From assembly GCF_964204645.1 (NCBI RefSeq), contig NC_134031.1, forward strand, positions 6,927,001-6,991,000: DNA of 64,000 nucleotides. Direction: 5' to 3'. Source of the stretch: Tubulanus polymorphus. Lineage: Eukaryota; Nemertea; Palaeonemertea; Tubulaniformes; Tubulanidae. Shown piece by piece: positions 9,401-35,000 of the stretch (position 1 is its first letter; each line of letters begins with the position of its first letter). The notes under the pieces are model-generated. The model saw nothing but the letters and a program-made list of their open reading frames with translations. It did no database searches and was not told the DNA's origin. A program made the position numbers and the translations under genes.

Positions 9401-9876
9401 TCTACAATACTTCGTAAATAAGGCGGCACCAGGGGGAGTCTGCCGTAGCTAATGGCACCCACAACATTTTGAAATTTACGTTCCGCTTATTTCATGAAGT
9501 CACAATTTTTACATGCACTTTCATCGGGATTTGAACCTAAAAGAACTGCTAAGTTGCTGGGCAAATAGATCCAAGGCCCCTGATTTCAAAGTTTTCTCGA
9601 GGGGATGATGCCCAAACTACGAATGAATTAACGAGTAAAATGTCTAACTCACTATTGCAGGTAACCGACGACGAATGCGTGTACGCATTGAACGAAACGA
9701 AATGGAACGTGCACAACGCGATCAAATTCATCAAGCTGCACCAACTGTATAAACTAGGAATCGCCGACATACTGCGCTGTAAACAAGCTCTGATGGAGTG
9801 TTCATGGAACGTGCCCGACGCCGCCGAGCTACTCATCGAAAACCCCCTCAACAGTCCCGAGTGCGTCGACGTCTAA
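401..9876 (+). CDS. TNK2: ACK1/TNK2-like non-receptor tyrosine kinase, C-terminal exons (5' partial)
   Basis: Coding exons deduced by GT/AG sites and phase: 401-542, 1950-2118, 2201-2324, 2985-3088, 3705-5032, 5471-5522, 9661-9876 (stop TAA 9874-9876). All phases join, giving about 710 residues. The kinase, SH3 and CRIB regions must lie upstream of the window. The last exon encodes a UBA-type module (VTDDECVYALNETKWNV, then LYKLGIADILRCKQAL and SWNVPDAAELL) that lines up closely with the ACK1 C-terminal ubiquitin-binding domain. The large fifth exon (about 443 residues) is low complexity, Ser/Arg rich, with a proline motif PLPLPPRDRSRP likely to bind SH3 domains. An acidic aromatic patch, DDFDFGDF, lies in the second exon. 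ACK1 family kinases bind active CDC42 and act in receptor endocytosis and growth-factor signalling. The UBA exon lies 4.1 kb from its neighbour. TNK1 is the alternative; the family call rests mainly on the UBA. Confidence 0.8.
601..928. mobile_element. MITE in TNK2 intron, 14-bp terminal inverted repeat
   Basis: The ends catgattcccacag (601-614) and ctgtgggaaccatg (915-928) are inverted repeats with one mismatch. The interior repeats short words such as ttgggaa. No coding capacity. Probably a non-autonomous DNA transposon. Confidence 0.55.
982..1400. mobile_element. MITE family B (AGGGTCCCTAC ends), copy 1
   Basis: Related to copies at 30042, 30903, 34963, 37520 and 40955. Members start near gggtccctacaactcctt and end near ctgtagggaccct, so the termini are inverted repeats of about 11 bp. 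Shared interior words include tttaatttgagcaaaat and gatatgaaagtgatgc. This copy is in a TNK2 intron. No ORF; the short termini suggest a DNA transposon derivative. Confidence 0.65.
2335..2791. repeat. Minisatellite, about 20-bp unit (cagtctgtcagtaactcctc)
   Basis: Some twenty-plus imperfect head-to-tail copies of a 19-21 bp unit lie in the TNK2 intron, starting about 10 bases after the exon ending at 2324. Variants such as cccaatctgtcagtcacc recur in the same order in two blocks (about 2440-2555 and 2640-2775), so a multi-unit segment was duplicated. Open frames across it are repeat artefacts. Confidence 0.9.
3385..3602. mobile_element. MITE family E (CAGGGGCGGATCC ends), copy in TNK2 intron
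   Basis: Ends caggggccgatc and ggatcccccctg are inverted. The interior (aaactttaggtatcagtttaggtata) is the reverse complement of the interior of the copies at 11837 and 43876. Such ends are typical of hAT-type non-autonomous elements. It lies just before the largest TNK2 exon. Confidence 0.55.
6711..6903. repeat. Tandem repeat, about 58-bp unit x 3.3
   Basis: Each unit begins aaatagtttaagttcatg and continues through actcgcaactgtgg and gagctttcacgt. Three full imperfect units and a partial fourth can be read. Confidence 0.8.
7191..7451 (+). mobile_element. TTAA-type MITE family A, degenerate copy
   Basis: Shares the interior of the copies at 33579 and 39565: gtgttgaatagcgggcatacc, gacaggtgctgccact, then caccgcactgtggtgtagacg. 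The outer ends and flanking TTAA have decayed, so this is an old copy. Confidence 0.65.
8040..8322. repeat. Two direct repeats of about 95 bp
   Basis: The segment from gctaccgatatatgaagatc through tgagtgtatcaagagatgat to cacgggagcctaaaaatctag recurs about 189 bases on, with roughly 15 percent divergence and small indels. No element termini identified. Confidence 0.6.
8371..8650. mobile_element. MITE family F (CAGGGTGGCCAC ends), copy in TNK2 intron
   Basis: Inverted ends ggtggccact and agtggccaccctg, with gtcagggaa words inside both ends. Other copies: 27381-27470 (short) and 36631-36964. Ends starting CAGGGTGGCC fit hAT-like MITEs. No ORF. Confidence 0.6.
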
Positions 9877-10077: not shown

Positions 10078-11836
10078 ATTCTTGTTTGAAAAAATATCTT
10101 CGTTTATATAAATCGATAGAAATGCATTTACCAGTGTATAAAAAAAAATCATTATTCGTCATAAATACGAGGCCTCTAGTCGCTTTAGTTGTATTTTTAT
10201 AAAACTTCTCTATCGCAGTCGATTATTGAAAAGACGTCTGCTGCATCGAGGTTCGTTAGATGGACAGTAGATGGCGCTTCGTGTTCTAAAAACAAGATTT
10301 CTAATGATGCCGCGTTGAGAATTTTGTCACAACATGTCTTCTAGATAACTTTCCAATTTTTCGCCGTTTCGAGAAGCGGAACTAGCTTTTTCGCTTCGAT
10401 AAAAAAGATTCAAAAGATTGTCGGCAGTCTTTTATGCGTATAATTACGTTATCTAGAAGAACTATGTTTTTATTTTTTGTATATTTTTCATCAAGCACTT
10501 GTTACGTTGAAATCATGGCATAATATTTAAATCGTTACCAGTATTTCGATTGAAATTAATTGTTTACACAACGAGAGATCCGAAAATTGATCGTGGAATT
10601 TTACGAATGGATTCGGTAATTTTACGAATGAATTTGGTAATTCCTAATCAAATATTCGTTTATATGTTGAGATCAGGAATATGTTCTAATCGCCTTTTTT
10701 CAATGATTTTTAATTCAAAATTTTCGATATGTTTTGTTTTGATTGAGATTTAAATTTGAGTTGTCTTGTTTGAAGGTCTGCCATTGAGATAGAATTGGGT
10801 TGGGTTTGCATATTTTTGGGGTTTATACAGCTATGCTATCAATTCGACCCAGTCATGGTAGTGGTTGTATCCGCAGTGCTCTACAATCCTACAGCATCCA
10901 TTGCTGAGATTCTTTATTATATGTTATTGTATGTTAGTGCTTTAAGTCTGTATGACCTTATTGAGAATTTGAATGTGGTCATAATCTAATGTCTGGCATT
11001 CGTGAAGTTCCCTTTCAGTTACAAATTCCTGAGGTGAGGTCCTATATGTACACGGGAAATTTCGATGATCAAAATATGGAATATCAAATTTTTGATTGAG
11101 TGTGGCTCCAGATCGTAGATTGCTCCTGCATCGAATGGGAGTGTCACTGAACCTGAAACCCTCTTAACCTAAGACCCGTTAGGTCGTATGTCTAGGGGGT
11201 CTTGGACCCGCCTGTCCGATTTTTAAGTTGTGCTTACTATTTCTCATAAACTGTCAGTCCAGATAACGCGTTAATGCTCATTTTACGTAGCTTTTAGTAT
11301 ACTCCTTTTTGTAAACCAGTCTTCCGTTGAGTCGTTTCGGTTACCATATTTAACGCCGTTGTAACAACTCGAGTTGTTATATAAGAAACGTGCGATCCGT
11401 TTTCGATCCGTTTTTTCGCGAATCTCATCTCGTCGTCTATTAAATCGTAAAACGAAAAGAATAAAATATTTTCGTTCGAAAGTCTCAATAGATAAATAAA
11501 CCGCTTGGATTGTAATTATTAATGAACTACTGTACATTGTATTCTATAGTGTGTTACGATATGAAATCGAGTGTCAATGTTTTAACCGTGTATGATCGAT
11601 GATAGTTGTTTCGTCGCGCGCTATACGACCATTAAACTGAAAACTTTTGCGAAAATTTTTTTGCGAAAATCGTGTAAATACGAACGACGATTTGTGTATA
11701 GTTTATAAAGTCATTACCGGTAAAATGTTGCCGATGAGAATGTCTCAGAAAAGCACTCTCTTTGTACGGCGATTGAACGTATTCAAATGGCGTTAATGTC
11801 TGTTTTTAGAAACTAGTTTTCTTACTCCCCGAACTT

Positions 11837-16765: not shown

Positions 16766-19700
16766 CTACGACGCCAAACCGATCAAAAAACCACCGCCGA
16801 ATCCACTGGCTAAAAATGCGTTATCTTTTACGAACTGTTTCGTCTGAAAAACACAAATAAAAGATTAGAACAAGTAATCAGACACACATCACATTCGAAC
16901 TCATAACACCAGATTTTTTACACCGTAAAGGCAGTTACAAAAATATTTTCATGCATTCCTAACTATCCGAAGTGTGTGAATTTGTGTGCCAATCAATATA
17001 ACAAATATAGCTGCAAAGCAGCAAGTACAGGTTTTCTGCACAGCTGCATCATCAATGAAGGCTATTACTGCATCAAAATCAGCCTGGGTTCAGACATTTA
17101 AGCAATATGTATGTTATTTGTCAAGGCATCAGTTAACTATTACATTGGTTTTCTTGTTGGGAAATGCTTCTTTTTGAATGAATGCTGAAAGCTGTGGGCC
17201 AGGATGGAAATATTTGATATCAAAATCAGTCAGGGACTTTATATCTCTGGGAGAAACTAGTGAACTTTTCTTTGTGAACTAGTGAACGTTTTTAAGAGTA
17301 ATTTTAATGTGTTTTTGCAGCCTAATTTTTATCTTAAACCGCACCAGTCTATAGATGTTCATTACTATTATCAAAAATACAGAAAGTGTATCCCATTATG
17401 TATTTTGCTTTATGTATTTTTGCTATTATTATTAAGCTCTAGTAGTAGTAGTAGTAGAAGTAGTAGTCTTAAACCATACAGAAATAGATAGAAAAATGCA
17501 ATGAGTTAAATCATATAACTAGATTCCAAATAAATACCCTTGTTGATCATTGGACAGAATAATAAAGGACCATGGGTCCAGTAGGATCAACTGAGTATAT
17601 TTCATTTTTGAGCACAAAACTCGATTTATACTCAGATTTGCAGTTACATATCAAGTTGAAATCTTGGTGCACTGAATAGATTTAGGCATGTTCAACTTTG
17701 ATGATATACATAGTAATGGGTTTCCCCATGACAATCATGGCAATCAATGCTATGTTCTATATGTAAGTTCTCAATACCGGTGGTAACGATGTCACTGGGA
17801 AAGTCCTTCAGTTCCAACATTGAACTTGGATGCTGAAGGGCTTTCCCAGTCATGTCATTATCGAGAGATAAGGTCAAGCATCGATTAGTAGAATGGGGAA
17901 AAATTCATAGAAATTTTGCACATTTCCTCCCAGTACTTCCAAATAGCTATTGATGAAACTTGCCATATCAATTCCATCACCACCTTTCAATTTCATCAAT
18001 TTCCCTCCTAATGACAAAATATCAGCGGTGTATATCCAGTGATTGCAATTTGTGCCAACAAGAGCCAACAGAAAGTTACTCTCAGAACCATTCCACAAAA
18101 ACTAACAAAAGAATATATGCAAATATCCAAAACGATCAAAACGAATTCCCTGAAACCAAAAACACGGAATCCTTTCGATCCTAGTAAATAATAGCTGTAC
18201 TTACACTTTCTAAATATTCTTCCCAGTTCGAGTTTCGCGCTGTCGTTTCGACTGTGTGACTGGCCGAGTTGAATTCGCGTTCCACTTTCGTCCAGTTGAT
18301 TTTGATGTAACCGCGATGTTGCGCTAACTGTATTAACAGTAGACTACCGCCAAGCGCAGTGGCAGCCGCTTTACCGACCTTCGAGAACAAGTAACCAGCG
18401 CACCTTAAGAAATAGAATGTTTTGAAATCAACAATTGTCTTTAGTTGAATATTTGGTGCTAAAACACCACAGTGGCGGATCCGGGGGGGGGGGGTGCTTT
18501 TTTCAGCTGTATTTTTTTGTATCATTTCTAATTTCAACCAGGAAAGTGCTCAGATTGCACCTAAATGCATCTAATTTTTCAAAATTTTCTTCCGGAGGAA
18601 CGTCCCCAGACTCCTAATGTGCAAGTAGTGACCCAGGTAAGTAGTGCGCACCCTCTTTCCGAAATGCTAGATCCGCCCCTGCGCTACACAATACGATCAT
18701 TCTCCTCTCTGTTGGTAATTCATATTTGGCCCTATGTTACTTCTACTGCGCACTCATGACCTAACTTGGCCATAGTTTTCACTACGCAAATGCATCATTA
18801 GTGAACTGAAACGGAGGCAAGTGGCACGGAATTTAAAAGAAATGTGAAACGTCAGGACTTCTGTCTGGTATACTATATAAGGAAGCAAACCATCGCTGAT
18901 TCGCTATGGTCTGATCATGTGAAATACAACGAAATTACTGAAGCCATTTGACTGCCGTTAGGCTCAATAAAGTCCCATTAATATCCATTGATTTTCGCAG
19001 TTCTTTAAACCGGTACCTGGAGATACGTACCATCCCGATACGCCGCCGATCGTGATCTGTTTCGCCGCTGAAGCTTTCGTAATGTCGTCGTACATTTTCT
19101 TGATCCAGTCGTTGCTGTTATTACTATTATTACCGGTTATCTCCTTTATTATTTCTAATCTGCCACTCCCTTTATCTTCTGTAAGCAACAACAAGGAAAA
19201 GGACATCTTAAGCAACGTTGTTCTTGTAAATGCTATTTTTGGCTATAGCTCCAGGGGCCGATCCAGCAAGACTTAAGCCTTTTACAAGAGCATCAAATTT
19301 TTTTCAGCGCCCTTTTCAATTTTTCCAGCGAAGATAATTAACGAAGATAACTTTGTGCGGTAGTGCCCATAATATTGCCGTTTTTGTTCCTCTGATGATG
19401 GGGCTTAGTTTAAGCCTCGAAACTGCAATAAACTGTTTTTATTTGTTGATATTGCCTTTGTGGATATCACAGTGCCTTTTGCGAATTAAAATGGTCTTCA
19501 AAATTAGCTTCTCAGTGCTGGAGTACACCTAAATAATACCTTTTTGGACATCAAAATGCCCTAAAAGAAAATCCTTCAAAACTGGCCTCTCAGTGTAGGA
19601 TTACAAATAATGTTGCCATTACGGACAACAAATTGCCCTTTTGGAATGTGATAAGTCCTTCAAAATTGGCTTCTGGATCCCGTCCGTGGGCTCATTCCTG

Positions 19701-24804: not shown

Positions 24805-25725
24805 CCTGGATACTGTGCTCGATAAAAGAACTGACCGATATGTAAAGCAATGACGACCTGTGGGTAGGACTCAAAAAGAGTTGAATTGTCATTATGTGAT
24901 GCTGTTAATTACTGATTGGTGCTCGGTCATGCGTAAAACAAATGGCCTTAAGACCAAAGTAGAATCTAGTTAATAAACACCCAGAGGTAGATGGGGATAA
25001 AATGAAATTGATTATAATTTCTTACATAAACATAGTTATTTTCGATCTGACAACCTTTTCCTGGGGCACGCTGTAATAAGAATTTGTTTCTGCCATTTCG
25101 CGCTAGCATTCAAAGGGCCTGGCTGGTAACCTCATTGCCATGATCTAAGCCGGGTAGGTTTGGTACACCTAAACACCAGTGTTCTACGCATGCTGGAATT
25201 TTAAAGGGGTTGCATTCATTATATATGACATCGTGACTGCTGAAGTAGCAACAGAACAGAGAACGACGAGCTGCTACGCGGTACAGGGTGCTTTTGAAAA
25301 AAGCATAAAAATTTTTTGTTAAGCAAAAAAGTGGCGCAGCTTTGGCCGCTGCTGCCGTCCTCGTTCCAATGGCTCTGAGCAAGGCTTTCAATCCCTCAAA
25401 AAATACAGAAAATTAAACTTAATTCTGGTGTAATATCTTCTATTGCTGGTAGGGATAGCACAAATTTTACAGCGAGGTGGATGTAAAGATGAAAGGGGTG
25501 ACCGCCCTTCTAAGACCTGTTGCACTTGAGAACACTGAAACACTAACACTGCAGTTGCTCCGGCATTTTACGTATCTAAAAAGAAATTGTTCATAAAAAT
25601 TAATGAAACGAATAGACGATCCTTTATTCTTGTTCGATTCCACGATCAGCAGAAAGTTATTCTTACGTGCTGGTCGACCAGTTGATGCCGTGCTTTTTTA
25701 GCCCACTTTATTGCGTTCACTTTTC

Positions 25726-25755
25726 GTCCGTCGTCCGTTCGTCCGTCCGTCCGTA
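25726..25755. repeat. (CCGT)n simple repeat
   Basis: tccgtcgtccgttcgtccgtccgtccgt, followed by ttttgaagacgcttcaagg and aagatggccgac words that recur at 25930-25970 and 26050. It may be the edge of a larger dispersed repeat. Confidence 0.7.
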
Positions 25756-26265
25756 GACGGAATCCAGTTATTTTGGGAAGTTTTGAAGACGCTTCAAGGT
25801 AACGTCTTGATATTTGGGTTACACATGTATCTACCCTAGACACATCTTCAGCCCAAAAACTGCCCCTGTCAGAATCAAGATGGCCGACTGGCAGCCATTG
25901 TTGTTCGCCAAAATCAGCACTTTTTACACATTTTTGAACTTTTTGAGGGAAATTTTGAAGACGCTTCGATCAATTACATTGATCTTTCGGATATATGTGA
26001 ATCCCCCCAGGGCCCATCAACATAACAAAAATTGGGTCGATCGGACTCAAGATGGCCGTCCTATGACCTTTTTAGTGCCCAAAAATGTTAATTTTGGCCC
26101 AAATTCTGAGTCCTGTAGCTTCCTACTGGTTAATCATTTCTCATTGCAATTTGTGATGGGTATTCTTTGGAAAGGGATGTTTTATACCTGAGACAGGTAT
26201 TTTTCATCAGCCAATTATGACGCAATTGGCGGCCATCTTGGTGTCACCAGTACTCATTCGTAAGT

Positions 26266-26880
26266 GGGACAAAGTTTTTCCACATAATATTGATACCTAA
26301 GCATATTTTGCTACCGCAATCAATTAGAAAGTTGTAGCTCATAACGTGTTCTATGATTGTGGTGAGTTTCATGGTAATTGGATTTTGTATATGGCCACCA
26401 GGGGGCGTTGAATAATACAATATCTTAGCATTTCTTTATTATATTCGTACCTATGCATATTTTGTAACCACAATCAATTGCAAAGTTGTAGCTCATGACA
26501 TCATCTATGATTGTTGCGAGTTTTAAGGACATAAGTTTATCTATATGGTCACCAGGGGGCGTTGAATTGTAGAATAACTTAGTATTTCCTTATTATATTG
26601 GTACCTAGGCATATTTTGTTACCATGATCAATTGCGAAGTTGTAGTTCATGACATGTTCTATGATTGTGGTGAGTTTCGAAGTCATTGGGTTTTGAATAT
26701 GGTCACCAGGGGGCGTTGAATAGTAGAATGACTTAGAATTTCCGTATTAAATTGGTAACGAGGCATATTTTGTTATCACAATCAATTACAAAATCGTAGC
26801 TGCTGACAGGTTCTATGATTGTGGTGAGTTTCAAGGTCATTGGTTTTTGTAAATGGTCACCAGGGGGGCGTTGAATGTTG
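26266..26880. repeat. 154-bp tandem satellite, four units, each with a CTCF-like core
   Basis: Units share catattttgttaccacaatcaat, agttgtagctcatgac, tctatgattgtggtgagttt and caccagggggcgttgaat. The last word starts a base run at 26395, 26549, 26703 and 26857, exactly 154 bases apart. ccaccagggggcg (26395-26407) matches the vertebrate/insect CTCF core; units 2 and 3 read tcaccagggggcg, and unit 4 has one extra G. Confidence 0.9.
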
Positions 26881-27380
26881 AAATTGTTAGATTGTTGAGC
26901 ATTTGAAACCACTTCCCAAGTGGGCATGGAGTCCCTGGACCCCTAGTTTGCAGAGGGACTATATAGAAAAAGATGTGCTCTCTATCGGAAGCGATCTTTT
27001 GTCGAACGTCTCTTTAAATCCGTGTCCAGACGAGATATACGTTATGACATTGAAACTGTACTGTAAAATCCTCATTTCATAACACGAGGTTCTAAATATG
27101 TATCCTAACTCGTCCCAGGCAGTATCACAGTATCGGGGCTTCAGGTAGGTTCGGTTAAGTCGTCGAATCTTTTCGGGTCGTTCAAAATGTAGCCGACTCG
27201 AATCTGAGAGCGATGTCCAAATTGGATGGTTTCATAATTCCATTGGTTAGAAAAATACCTCAACGAACATACCTCATTGAAACAGTTGTTCAAGGTGACT
27301 TGGGGTAGAGTAAATGTAATACTTATAAGCATCAGGTCTTTTTCTAGTGTCTGCACGTAGTTTGTCTTTACATGTTTAAA

Positions 27381-29037: not shown

Positions 29038-32000
29038 ATGGCTAGTTCCACATCCTCTGCCCAACACGCTCGTGCTAATCATTTATGTAGTCTACTCGAT
29101 ACGAACGAACTACGAGTCTCCGAAAATATAAAAGAGGTTATCCACGAGGATCTCAATGAAAGTAAGTACCGTGTACAACTCATCTTTAAATCATGTTGTT
29201 GATGTAAAATGCTGGGTGAAGATTACTGGGGGGATGAATGCCATATGGCAACATTGAGCTTTGATTGTCGCTAGCCATGATCACACGGAGTCGATTTGGC
29301 CCGGGCCAAATTGGCACGGATCATTTCCGGAACCAGTTGCAGTTCAAATGCCATCATTTTGACCTGTGCTTAAATGTGGCTCGGGCCTGGTTTGATGTTT
29401 TTGGTCGGGCCAAACAGGCACAGGCCCATTTGTGACACCTGTGTGAACTATATCAACTATCCTTTGGTTAACCAACTAACTCCACCTTGAGAATTGTTTT
29501 TCTTGTGGTTGAATAAATGTCAATTAAAAGTTATAAGATAAAAATTGAATTTAAAAGTATTTGTGTTTTTTTTAATGAAAGTAAAAATTGGCCATATTGG
29601 CAAATTGTTTAAGACATTAATTCAGGCCATATTTTCTGATTGATTCCTTTCACTGTTTTACCAATCAAAGCTCCACAAAATCCCCCAGTGACGATATTGG
29701 TACTGTAGCAGTATTTTCTCATTCATGATCTGTTTTTTAGCGCGTGAACCGTTACTACTGAACGCTATATTCGACTATTACATCGCATCGAATTCGGAGA
29801 AAAGCGTCGAAATTTTAGGCGGTATTCGTGAACCCCATGATAAGGTAAACTGGATTAGCAAATTAATTTCATCATCATATCATTACTGAGCTACTTACTT
29901 CAATGATGGAAAAGTTAACTTTGCCTAATTTGAAATGTTATGAGAAGAAACTATGTCCTTTTTTGAGTTACATATGACCAAGCATTGTAGACATAACTTT
30001 AAAGATGGAATAATAACTTCTAGATATCGGCAGCGTCACACAGGGTACCTACAACTCCTTGTTTCCTTAGAAATTCCTCAAAATGGAAAAATGCTTTTAA
30101 AGTTGCTTGAAACTCCTTTAATTTGAGCAAAATGCCCAAAACTCCTACTCCTTCAATTTTGAGAAATAAGCAATTGGAAATTATTGTCTAGTTTCTGTTT
30201 ATACATTAGACTACACCTAAATCGGTATGCTTGGGACCAGGATTTTTTTAACCAAATTAGGCGGTTAATGCATTAGAGGATAGAAGTTAGCTTACCAAAC
30301 CACCTAGACAGTCTTGATTTAGGAGGCATCTACAGTAATTGGGATATGAAATGATGCAGACACTCCCTCGAAATTTTCTCCTTCAAAACTACTTGATCTG
30401 TAGGGACCCTGGTTTAACTCAATGCTATTATTTATTATCCAGAGCTGCCAACTGTTCCTGATTTTCAGTATTTGTTACTATTTTGTAACGAGAAAAACTT
30501 GATTGAGTTGATTAGTTCGATGCATACAGAAATATGAAAGATGTTACTGAGCGTCTTACTGTTGATTACTGATTTATTTGAACATTTTCTTTCATACTTC
30601 AATGAAATGTTACTGAAAAAAATTCAATTTGTTACTGATAGCACTTTTCAGAGGTTGGCAGCCCTGATTACCGATGATAAGATGTGTTCAAATCAAGCTG
30701 TTGTATATTCTATTTTTACCAGCATTTATTCGACAAATGTAATGAGTACATGAAACTAAATCAGACGAAACTTCCGACATTGAATCTACTCGGCTATATC
30801 GTACGCAAACAACCGTCATGGCTGCACAAGATCGTCAATCATACTTTGTTCACGACGATCATCAAGTGTTTGAAGGTAAGAATTGAAATCGGGTATACAG
30901 CGCGGTCCCTTCGTCTCAATGATTCCTTAAAATCTCCTTCTAAACAGAAGATGCTTTTAAGGTGCTTGAAACTCCTTTAATTTGAGCAAAATGTCTGAAA
31001 CTCCTTTGAAACTGTTTCAATTTTGAGAAATAGCCGATTAGAAATGTTTATATTTGTACAGAAAGCTCTACCTAAATTGGTACAGTTCGGGACCTGGATT
31101 TCTTTCTCACCCAATCAGGCAGTAACCGAAACACAGCCAACGACATCCATTCTCCTCCGGCGGGGATTCTAACCTGAAGGCATCGTTAGACTCAGCCATG
31201 GCGCAAAACCCTGCAACACTTGACCGAATGCGCAGGTAGTTGGGCAGATTGCCAGTTGCGTAATCACAAATTTCACGAATAGACTATAAATGGAAAAACC
31301 CGGGCTAAAATAAAACCGGATTTCTGATTGGCTAATAATGACAAAACTGTGCATGTAGCTGTGCACTTGATCTAGTGTGGCAGGATTTCGTACTGTGGTG
31401 AATCTCGGGTTCGAATCCCTGCTGGAGGAGGATGAGGGCAACTAGAAATGCACCCGAGGACGAATTTTAAACCACAAATGTGACACATATCTAAGACATT
31501 ACTGGATATTATAAAACTGCGTATATTCTTTTTCTTTTTAAAATTATAGACGGATACAGATGTACCGATATTAATGAGCGCCGCTCTCATTGTAACTACG
31601 TTATTACCAGTAATACCAGTAGCGGTCGGCAGCTATCTCAACGATATATTCCTCGTGTTTGGGAGATTGGCTGATTTTGCTACGATGAAACCAGGTCTGT
31701 CGATGAAGTCTAGTCAAAACTTAGAAACCGTCAGAAAATAAATCGTAAAATTATCAACTGTGGGTTTTACTCATTAAAACTTAATTAAGTCTTTAAACTG
31801 CCTCCTTTTTAGTTTTATGTAAGTCTTTTAAAAAAAGTCTTCAAATTTAGATATCCTTACTCCTTAATACTATGAACCTTGCTATAACATGTATTTGACC
31901 AGTGATATTTTTATACGTAGGCAATATCCCCGACATATTTCTGCTACATTTACAAGTAAGCGTCTACGCGCTGTTTCATCGTCTGTACGGGATGTACCCG

Positions 32001-35000
32001 TGTAACTTTCTTGCATTTCTACGCGCTTATTACAACAAGAAAGAACGAATGCTGACTTTCAATGCGACTATCAAGGTTTGTGTTGTTTTGTTTCTTTCTG
32101 AAATCTTACGTGATTCAAAGAAAATATGAGAGCATAGAATAGAACGTATGTATGCATTAGCGCCAACGTATTGTGTTCCTAGAAAAAAATTAGGTAGAAA
32201 AAGATTAGGTAGGCTATGTAGGACAGTTCCTGACCACTTGACCTACATAAAACCTATCTGATAAAGGAGGCATTTTGTTTAAAAATTTTTTCCTCCCGTC
32301 ATGTACACGGCAATGAATTACAAAACCAAATATAGCTGCAAAGCAGTGATAAATGGGTTCTGCCTTGCTGGTTGAAATTAATGTTGTAATAGAAAGTGTA
32401 CAAAGATTTTGTCACATTTTCACGATTAAAATACTACGCTACCTTAACCAGGAATTCAGTATGGTTTTGAATGACAAAAGGACCGATGTTTCAAAATTTT
32501 CGAATTCATCAAAAGTTTTGAAACAATGGTTCTTTCGTCTTGTCGTTCATGCTGAAATAAACCTCGAATTTTCATGGCTTTCTGCAATTCAAAACGCTTA
32601 GATCCCTCCCACGTTGGATTCAAATGAAAATTGCAAATGAAATTCGTTTCTGTTTCAGCCCATGCTCGAGCGAGTTAGAATGCACCCGTTGTTGGTGACT
32701 GCCTCGAAAGACCAAGAAGTTTCCACGTCGCGGTTAGTACCTTTCTGTCTTATTTCTGGCCTTGATATTTTCATATATCAATTTATATGCTTTGTTTAGA
32801 TGTTAAATTATTAGGAATTGAAAAGTGAAACACAAACTGAAACGAACTGAAAAGTGATCCCTTAAACATTTTCACTGATTTTTCTGGTACCGGTACCCTA
32901 TAATTTTGTTTGAGAATAGGATAAATTGTATGAAGTTTAAGCTAGGAAAGTATATTATGATAAAACCTGTCTATGGCGAACACTTGTCGTTCTGGGCAAA
33001 ACGTTCACCGCATATACCGGTAGGTGTCCACTGTAGAGAGGTGTACACCGTAAAGAGTTATTCGCTGTAGAGGTGTGTTCACTGCAGAGAAGTGTCCACT
33101 GTAGAGGTGTCCATTGTAGAGATGGTACAATTATTTGCAAATGAACTAGAAAATTTTGGTAGGTTCCTAGAAAAAAGTGTTTGTTATGGGAGATGTTCAC
33201 TATTGAGAGGTGTTCACTCAGGAGGTGTTACCATATTGAGTTCGTTAACCTAACGGCAGACCTACAAATACCAATGATGCGCGCTAGATAAACCGGGCGC
33301 GAAATTTTATCGTTCTAGGTGGAAGCACATGGAAATCCATGACATCATTATCGAATGCGCGAAGATGTCGTTAGACGTGATCGAAGGAACGAACGAGCAA
33401 AACGGACAACTGACGTTATTGAATTCTTATCGAGAACACTTTCTGTCGGATAAACCAGCTAACGTTAGAACTCTGCTTAATCGTGAGTAATCATCGATTA
33501 GGCTTCTCGCCGGAATGACTTTATTTCGTTTGCAACGAAATCTAGATGTGTTTTCGCAGTTTCAAGTTTCTATTTTAACCCTTTCAGTGCTGACTAATCA
33601 ATACCCTATAGTGCTGGAGATAATTTGAAAATTTTGAAAAATTTCACCCTAGTGTGTTGAATAATGGGAATATCACTATAGTGCGTATTTACCGCGGTGC
33701 GGTATATCGTTAGTTACTAATATTTCTCTATGTTTGACAGGTGCTGCCATCTTTCAATAGAGATAAAAACTAATTACATCGATACACCGCAGTGCGGTGT
33801 ACTAGCAAAATCCATCACCGAATCATACACTGCACTGCGGTGTAGACGCGCTGAAAGGGTTAAATTGAAAATAATTTTGTTTTCAATTGCTGGTTCTCGG
33901 CTTTCGTTCAGACGCTAGTTTTCGTACAATCTGTCTGTATGCGTGTCAGCTACTCAACTTCGTAATAGTGGGTCGATCTTGATGAAAGTTGAGTACAATG
34001 TTAGTATGGTGGTCTGATGGTGCGGTGCAAAGAATGAGCACCACCTAGTGGCAGAACTAGGCACTAAAAACTGTTTTTCAGCGAGATGACCTCATGAGGA
34101 ACGGGGTTGACTTTCAAAAAGTAGTGTTGACAAAATTTCCCTATTGGCCCTAGATGCAACATATCCAAAATGCATTGGGAACTAGCGTATGGTAATGTCA
34201 GAGTTCCAGATTCGAGCCTGAGCCTGAGAACCATTATCGCCTGTGGCTTGTTAGACTCAAAATAAACTTGCGACTAATAAAACAGGGTATTGTGAAACAT
34301 ATATGGGGTTGCATTTGGCTACAGTATTCATAAGGTTATTTTGAATGTCTTCGAAATTCGTCGTTAAACGGAATTTTCTTGTAATTTTAGAAACTGCTGG
34401 ATTGAAGGCGTCTGACCTGAATTCAAGAGGAGTAGATTTGTCTCTAGTGTTGTCGAACAGTGATATGTTCAGTCCGTCGGCCGCTTGTGGATTGTCTACT
34501 CCTCCGCGTAGACTGTCTCCGGTTTACGGTACGACCACCAACGAAATAGCTTCGGCCATTTGTAGCACATCTTACCAGGGTAAGTTTTACTTGTTCGGTT
34601 GAGATACACATTGTAATAGTGATTGGCCTGTGAATACTCTTTTTAAGTTTTCAAAGAACGTTTTAGGACGACTGAATTATTTTTATTGTACCCTAGCAAC
34701 AAAGTACAGATTGGGAACATACTGGAGTCAGCTAGTTCATTTGTGTAATTCTTGTGCGGATACTCTGCTAGGTCTCTGGTTGTGTTTTGATGAAACTTGG
34801 TACGACTATTCAAATGAAGATTTGCTCTTGCTGTTAATTTTTTGAGATAATCAAATATGGCTGACTGGCAGCCATTTTGGCATCTATGTAGTTGATTTTG
34901 TGTGGACGACATCCTTTCTAAGGTTTCTTATTGTTCACTATGATAATTGGTACACATATTACTGGATCCCTACAACTCCTTGATTCCTTGAAAACTCCTT

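Follow-up and report, generated by a model that had tools for sequence, protein, structure and literature searches.

A CTCF-consensus motif in the tandem units of a Helentron-type element of Tubulanus polymorphus

The tandem array between FUNDC1 and TSC1 in the window, as we call the 64,000-nucleotide stretch of Tubulanus polymorphus DNA analysed here, is the internal repeat of a dispersed non-autonomous Helentron (HINE) of ca. 1.25 kb. What is new is a HINE, a known kind of element, whose tandem units mostly carry a predicted CTCF-consensus site. We consider it fairly probable that the feature in the window is a single HINE insertion whose satellite-like units mostly hold such a site, and that some unmethylated copies of the family are bound and serve as stackable pause or boundary sites.

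The array lies within a HINE insertion

As originally predicted, the window holds a tandem array of 154-bp units, at ca. 26273-26880 on the plus strand, placed at 26287-26876 by repeat finding, with 3.8 copies, 82% matches and no indels. In the excerpted descriptions, a HINE is composed of a subterminal inverted repeat (subTIR), an inverted repeat (IR), a microsatellite, a satellite-like array, a second subTIR and a palindrome, and inserts into T-rich targets without target duplication (PMC7492417, PMC4067079). The sequence surrounding the array contains the following features.

25695..26946, plus strand: HINE insertion from the 5' T-run to the terminal CTAG, from similarity to dispersed copies; the exact 5' edge is uncertain within the T-run
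25700..25708, plus strand: remnant of the 5' subTIR, AGCCCACTT, from comparison with other copies
25709..26272, plus strand: left module of the element, from similarity to dispersed copies
25723..25754, plus strand: GTCC-type microsatellite, from repeat finding and the sequence
26915..26925, plus strand: 3' subTIR, CCCAAGTGGGC, the exact reverse complement of the family's 5' GCCCACTTGGG
26931..26940, plus strand: short 3' palindrome GTCC-CT-GGAC ahead of the terminal CCCCTAG, read from the sequence

Of 20 loci fetched around matches to the array, 16 become similar to the window at 25709, and in all 20 the similarity extends to 26947-26953. Other copies start slightly further out, with TTTTTAGCCCACTTGGGACTTTAGTCCCAGCGGGCTATTGCG followed by the GTCC microsatellite. 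Across the family, GCCCACTTGGG and CCCAAGTGGGC form an 11-bp pair of subTIRs, within the ca. 11-15 bp of HINEs, and in aligned copies the 5' subTIR is met by a complementary IR (AGCCCACTTGGGAC...GTCCCAGCGGGCT) and then by GTCC repeats. The window copy is damaged at this end: its 5' GCCCACTTGGG is truncated, and ca. 21 bp of the family's 5' hairpin and most of the IR are missing. The 3' palindrome, GTCCCTGGAC, is short, with a 4-bp stem, and is known from reading the sequence. The copies end in ...CCCAAGTGGGCATGGTGTCCCTGGACCCCTAG or near variants, the terminal CTAG being followed by T in 19 of 19 copies and by TT in 15 of these. At the 5' end, five Ts stand ahead of AGCC in 19 of 20 elements. 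One element (L021) has inserted into a T-run inside an older family member, and when it is set against uninterrupted family sequence, nothing beyond the Ts is duplicated. The CTAG-T flanks, the 5' Ts and this one nested insertion agree with a T-rich target and no target duplication. Ends and columns were analysed on 19 of 22 loci (L001-L022), as L002 duplicates L003, and L016 and L020 failed the full-length filter. The left flanks of L021, L031 and L038 are T-runs within the left module of another HINE; the family therefore appears to nest in itself.

Three open reading frames were tested against Pfam, two of at least 90 aa overlapping the element and one just outside it, and none gave a match, so on these three the element has no coding capacity. 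The genome holds 58 matches to Helitron_like_N (Rep), and among 100 listed of 1,654 family ends none was linked to an autonomous Helentron partner with the same ends. In viral contigs, searches with the motif block and with the 5' hairpin gave no match, and a COX1 family search of the genome gave none.

The original prediction took the array for a satellite placed as an insulator. This view was not upheld: the array does not stand outside a mobile element and is enclosed by element ends common to dispersed copies, which rules out a local satellite.

CTCF-like sites in the array

The exact word CACCAGGGGGCG occurs three times in the array, starting at 26396, 26550 and 26704, one base above the predicted starts of 26395, 26549 and 26703. 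Four cores had been claimed, of which these three are exact; the fourth, at 26858, reads CACCAGGGGGGCG with six Gs and is therefore not an exact core, so that an exact fourfold motif is ruled out. In a 19-row alignment the extra G is missing from the 18 other copies, and it therefore looks private to the window insertion. With up to one mismatch the word has four matches in the whole window, the three exact ones, all within the array, and a single one-mismatch match at 9427, compared to a mean of 0.02 in shuffled sequence (n=100). The CTCF-like word is thus present far above chance expectation.

The window was also scanned with an approximate CTCF matrix, which has a maximum score of 29.5. It places four sites in the array.

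26392..26410, plus strand: CTCF-like site 1, TGGCCACCAGGGGGCGTTG, matrix score 25.0
26546..26564, plus strand: CTCF-like site 2, TGGTCACCAGGGGGCGTTG, matrix score 20.0
26700..26718, plus strand: CTCF-like site 3, TGGTCACCAGGGGGCGTTG, matrix score 20.0
26854..26873, plus strand: CTCF-like site 4, weakened by one extra G, matrix score 8.6

With this matrix, sites 1-3 match at p values of at most 2.5e-7, and site 4 is weak with ca. 6e-5. At p<1e-5 the window contains eight matches vs 1.28 expected, three of them in the array. The strong matches at three sites bear out the claim that the word is the core of the animal CTCF consensus. Most units have T at site position 17, and most have T immediately before CACC, two places at which this matrix favours C. 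At the level of the motif, the predicted CTCF match of the array holds.

Abundance of the family

When the 267.8-Mb genome was searched with the array, the 40 candidates scored, out of 3,226, yielded 42 matches. Nearly the whole query is spanned at 96-100% identity by 40 of these, which lie on several chromosomes. The 36-bp 5' hairpin, with up to three mismatches, was found 1,654 times (control 0), of which 100 places were listed. On chromosome C1 (32.1 Mb), 81 of the 82 listed unchanged 5' ends lie at 8.1-24.4 Mb and the other at 28.8 Mb; recent copies therefore crowd the middle of the chromosome. Masking could contribute to this crowding, as one of five sampled 300-bp pieces consisted entirely of N.

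From the listed unchanged 5' hairpins 20 elements were picked by hand, disregarding the array. The exact CTCF word is present in 13 of them (1 to 4 words each) and absent from seven. Among these seven, little or nothing of the array is left in L038, L039 and L045, no 3' end was recognised in L031, L032 and L037, and the units of L043 persist without the word. Across otherwise alike insertions the number of tandem sites ranges from 0 to about 5. CTCF-like sites beyond the array were likewise looked for, and no match at p<1e-5 was found there in the 20 elements, the first 1,500 bases being scanned in the five without a recognised 3' end.

The motif inside and outside the element

Genome-wide, the exact word CACCAGGGGGCG occurs 4,676 times (reversed control 4), and in 3,800 cases, at least 81%, it is followed by YTGAA, the HINE context. 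The sequence CACCAGGGGGCGS occurs 365 times (control 1), with 124 occurrences in the HINE subfamily context CTGAA and ca. 241 left. For the degenerate core CASYAGRKGGCG we counted 8,645 occurrences vs 122 in the reversed control, a ca. 70-fold enrichment; with at least 3,800 words in HINE context, the HINE therefore supplies at least 44% of these. Among 100 listed degenerate cores, 68 lie within the first 6.3 Mb of C1, ahead of the first listed HINE-context word at 6.34 Mb.

We compared 27 exact sites outside the HINE, 16 of which were picked by hand from the CACCAGGGGGCGS list. Eight of these are copies of just two segments (six and two, respectively), and the remaining 19 have nothing in common beyond ca. 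32 bp. Two of the 27 match the element over short stretches (30 and 38 bp). The base ahead of CACC in these host sites is A in ten, T in nine, C in seven and G in one. The same motif is thus strongly enriched in the genome outside the element as well. On these counts the element may have scattered thousands of CTCF-like sites through the genome.

Some sites are clustered. At C3:22902650-23105720 (L063-L068), six segments of ca. 800 bp, 90-100% identical, each contain CACCAGGGGGCGC in one direction; this local series of duplicates, in which every member carries a CTCF-like site, may represent a gene cluster. A short non-HINE cluster at C1:83750-84400 (L047) has three CACCAGGGGGC words in 651 bases. 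C1 starts with nine exact CACCAGGGGGCG words within 0.9 Mb, after which the next is at 6.12 Mb; degenerate cores continue in the gap.

Conservation of the motif

Two sets of units, which overlap in kind, were used to evaluate the conservation of the motif. The first consists of 100 units anchored by exact sequence outside the motif, the first listed of 1,505 and all on C1. Of these, 65 contain the exact word, and 87 match the matrix at p<1e-5, vs none of 100 shuffled units. Changes common to more than 15% of the anchored units affect none of the 12 core columns and 14 of the 43 others (p=0.018), while a rank test of core vs other columns gave p=0.06. The second set is an alignment of 102 near-full units, out of 163 matches and from 32 of 41 sources, which leans towards young copies, 20 of the 41 sources being the best matches to the window. 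Here, columns with a shared change number 0 of 12 in the core vs 34 of 141 elsewhere (p=0.043). The longest invariant run, of 19 columns, is not significant (p=0.22, run permutation).

Within copies, the private change per column is 2.5% in the non-CpG core vs 3.6% in other non-diagnostic columns (p=0.92). The core CpG is changed in 10.5%, vs 2.5% for the other core columns, and hence decays about four times faster, a pattern that methylation would produce. Other blocks of the unit, e.g. TCTATGATTGT and GCATATTTTGT, are about as invariant as the core, which ranks 8th by conservation among 142 twelve-base stretches. The similarly conserved 11-mer TCTATGATTGT occurs 5,035 times genome-wide (control 134), compared to 4,676 for the motif word.

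The original prediction described the rest of the unit as more diverged than the motif. This is true on average; it does not extend to the other blocks just named or to the rank of the core. The idea was to be given up if the motif diverged like the rest. Within copies it does so, and between unit types the 12-base core is free of shared changes, with modest significance. Strong purifying selection on the motif is ruled out by the private changes (p=0.92), the run test (p=0.22) and the equally frequent 11-mer. The motif belongs to the shared design of the family, and single copies are not visibly protected.

These observations bear on the possibility that the motif is incidental, i.e. that the core matches CTCF while the methylated, silent copies are seldom bound by it, and that the word owes its abundance solely to that of the element. 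We regard this as a tenable explanation, although a doubtful one. The private change of the non-CpG core, which equals that of the rest, the fast decay of the core CpG and the frequency of the 11-mer would all fit it, as would the position of 81 of the 82 listed exact 5' ends on C1 in the middle of the chromosome, a placement typical of silent DNA. Against it, the word is far from a random 12-mer, being the best possible core of a site for which the host genome is enriched, and the changes shared between unit types avoid the core.

Host CTCF

The host has a CTCF orthologue on C3, with identities of 62% and 52% in two exons vs 33-43% for the next nine listed places, and CTCF is the best PDB-chain match of both host exons searched. 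Three exons yield 11 fingers. In ZF3, ZF4 and ZF5 the residues at positions -1, 2, 3 and 6 are the same as in the human protein. Three of these four positions are kept in ZF10, two in ZF7 (Arg, Asp) and one in ZF6 (Gln at -1), while ZF1, 2, 8, 9 and 11 are more divergent from human. The genome thus encodes a CTCF with matching DNA-reading fingers, and from the unchanged finger residues we infer that the host CTCF reads the usual core.

Alternatively, the element itself may need the motif, for replication, for the upkeep of the array or as a site for another C2H2 factor rather than for CTCF. The genome has many other C2H2 genes (206 matches), and the core columns are without shared change, yet other blocks are about as invariant. 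The same core is, however, enriched in unrelated single-copy places, the core-reading fingers of CTCF are unchanged, and elements without an array (L038, L039, L045) also reached the genome, which together make such a need improbable.

The FUNDC1-TSC1 locus

The window contains the following features around the insertion.

18229-18402 and 19030-19083, minus strand: coding exons of FUNDC1 (Pfam FUN14)
29059-29166, plus strand: first coding exon found of TSC1 (Pfam Hamartin), a weak single match with an E value of 0.06
34036-34054, minus strand: strong CTCF-like match CTGCCACTAGGTGGTGCTC among the TSC1 exons, facing the plus-strand sites of the array
10261-10279, plus strand: strong CTCF-like match TGGACAGTAGATGGCGCTT outside the repeat

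The next TSC1 match, at 29743, is firmer than that of the first exon. With FUNDC1 on the minus and TSC1 on the plus strand, the two genes are divergent, as had been stated. The HINE insertion has its 3' end ca. 2.1 kb ahead of the first TSC1 exon found. A separate array of 21-bp units, in ca. 21 copies, lies at 2341-2782.

A locus-specific insulator between the two genes, with the motif under selection at this place, was part of the original prediction. The divergent genes flanking the insertion and the three strong plus-strand sites (26.4-26.7 kb), which face the minus-strand match among the TSC1 exons, would be in agreement with it. However, the insertion is one of a family with 1,654 recognisable 5' ends, its fourth core carries a private G insertion, and individual copies give no sign of constraint. 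Hence, this reading is not supported, and we consider it very improbable. With three good sites and a weakened fourth, the FUNDC1-TSC1 copy bears no mark, apart from that fourth site and its damaged 5' end, that distinguishes it from its sisters or points to special selection.

Proposed role of the element

In the explanation we favour, a HINE insertion with candidate CTCF sites in most of its units, a rolling-circle Rep/helicase acting in trans would generate the copies. Each copy would drop a head-to-tail array with up to about five CTCF sites in the same direction and at nucleosome-scale spacing. CTCF might bind part of the copies, the unmethylated ones, which would then serve as pause or boundary sites that can be stacked. 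Vertebrate work indicates that methylation may block CTCF. Other copies would lose the site by decay of the CpG.

A further-reaching version is rather unlikely: the rolling-circle family would be the main supplier of strong CTCF sites, its nucleosome-spaced, same-direction arrays would be read by CTCF, much of this animal's map of loops and boundaries would go back to them, and binding by CTCF might in turn promote the spread of the element.

Comparison with known systems

Cases in which mobile DNA rewires CTCF landscapes come mostly from the retrotransposons of mammals. The HINE described here, with candidate CTCF sites in the majority of its units, would be an example of the same process driven by a rolling-circle DNA transposon, and in an invertebrate. 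Insertions with 0 to about five tandem sites would provide a natural series for the effects of site number and orientation. A literature search, with most subscription papers outside its scope, found no paper uniting CTCF and Helentron, and a HINE-type carrier of CTCF sites is undescribed in the titles and abstract openings from a broader search. According to excerpts of the respective reports, CTCF is absent from non-bilaterians (PMC12221973), and in lophotrochozoans CTCF motifs are found in annelid open chromatin, mostly near promoters, and at cephalopod domain boundaries (PMC7854359, PMC12407938, PMC12221973); the question is therefore testable in invertebrates.

In anatomy, the family is close to Cg_HINE and Pearl of oysters and ark clam, which in the excerpted account share the 5' subTIR with a complementary IR, the GTCC-type microsatellite, the 3' subTIR followed by a palindrome, and T-rich targets without target duplication (PMC7492417). 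Their arrays mostly consist of 140-180 bp units, as with the 154-bp units here. The comparison is one of anatomy, and a CTCF motif is unmentioned in the excerpts of that paper (PMC7492417). DINE-1 and mite HINEs are, in the parts of the report available, likewise non-coding, with subTIRs, a 3' palindrome, insertion into T-runs and sometimes tandem repeats; they are tied to Helentrons by shared ends (PMC4067079), whereas for the window family no autonomous partner was identified among the ends listed.

The placozoan Mutator transposons, as outlined in excerpts of the report, resemble the HINE as invertebrate DNA transposons with a motif of chromatin-loop anchors; their motif lies in the terminal inverted repeats and is backed by contact maps (PMC12221973), while that of the HINE is predicted from sequence. 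The DXZ4 macrosatellite, in the excerpted description, is similar in that tandem units each offer CTCF binding, predicted in the case of the HINE arrays, but it has 3-kb units at one X-linked locus, compared to 154-bp units in a dispersed transposon (PMC3218863). In mammals, again from excerpts, retrotransposons disperse CTCF sites (rodent lineage, PMC7520972; mammals, PMC9902604), as we propose for the mobile family described here. Those cases concern retrotransposons with measured binding (PMC7520972, PMC9902604), while the present element is a rolling-circle DNA element with several predicted sites in the same direction per copy.
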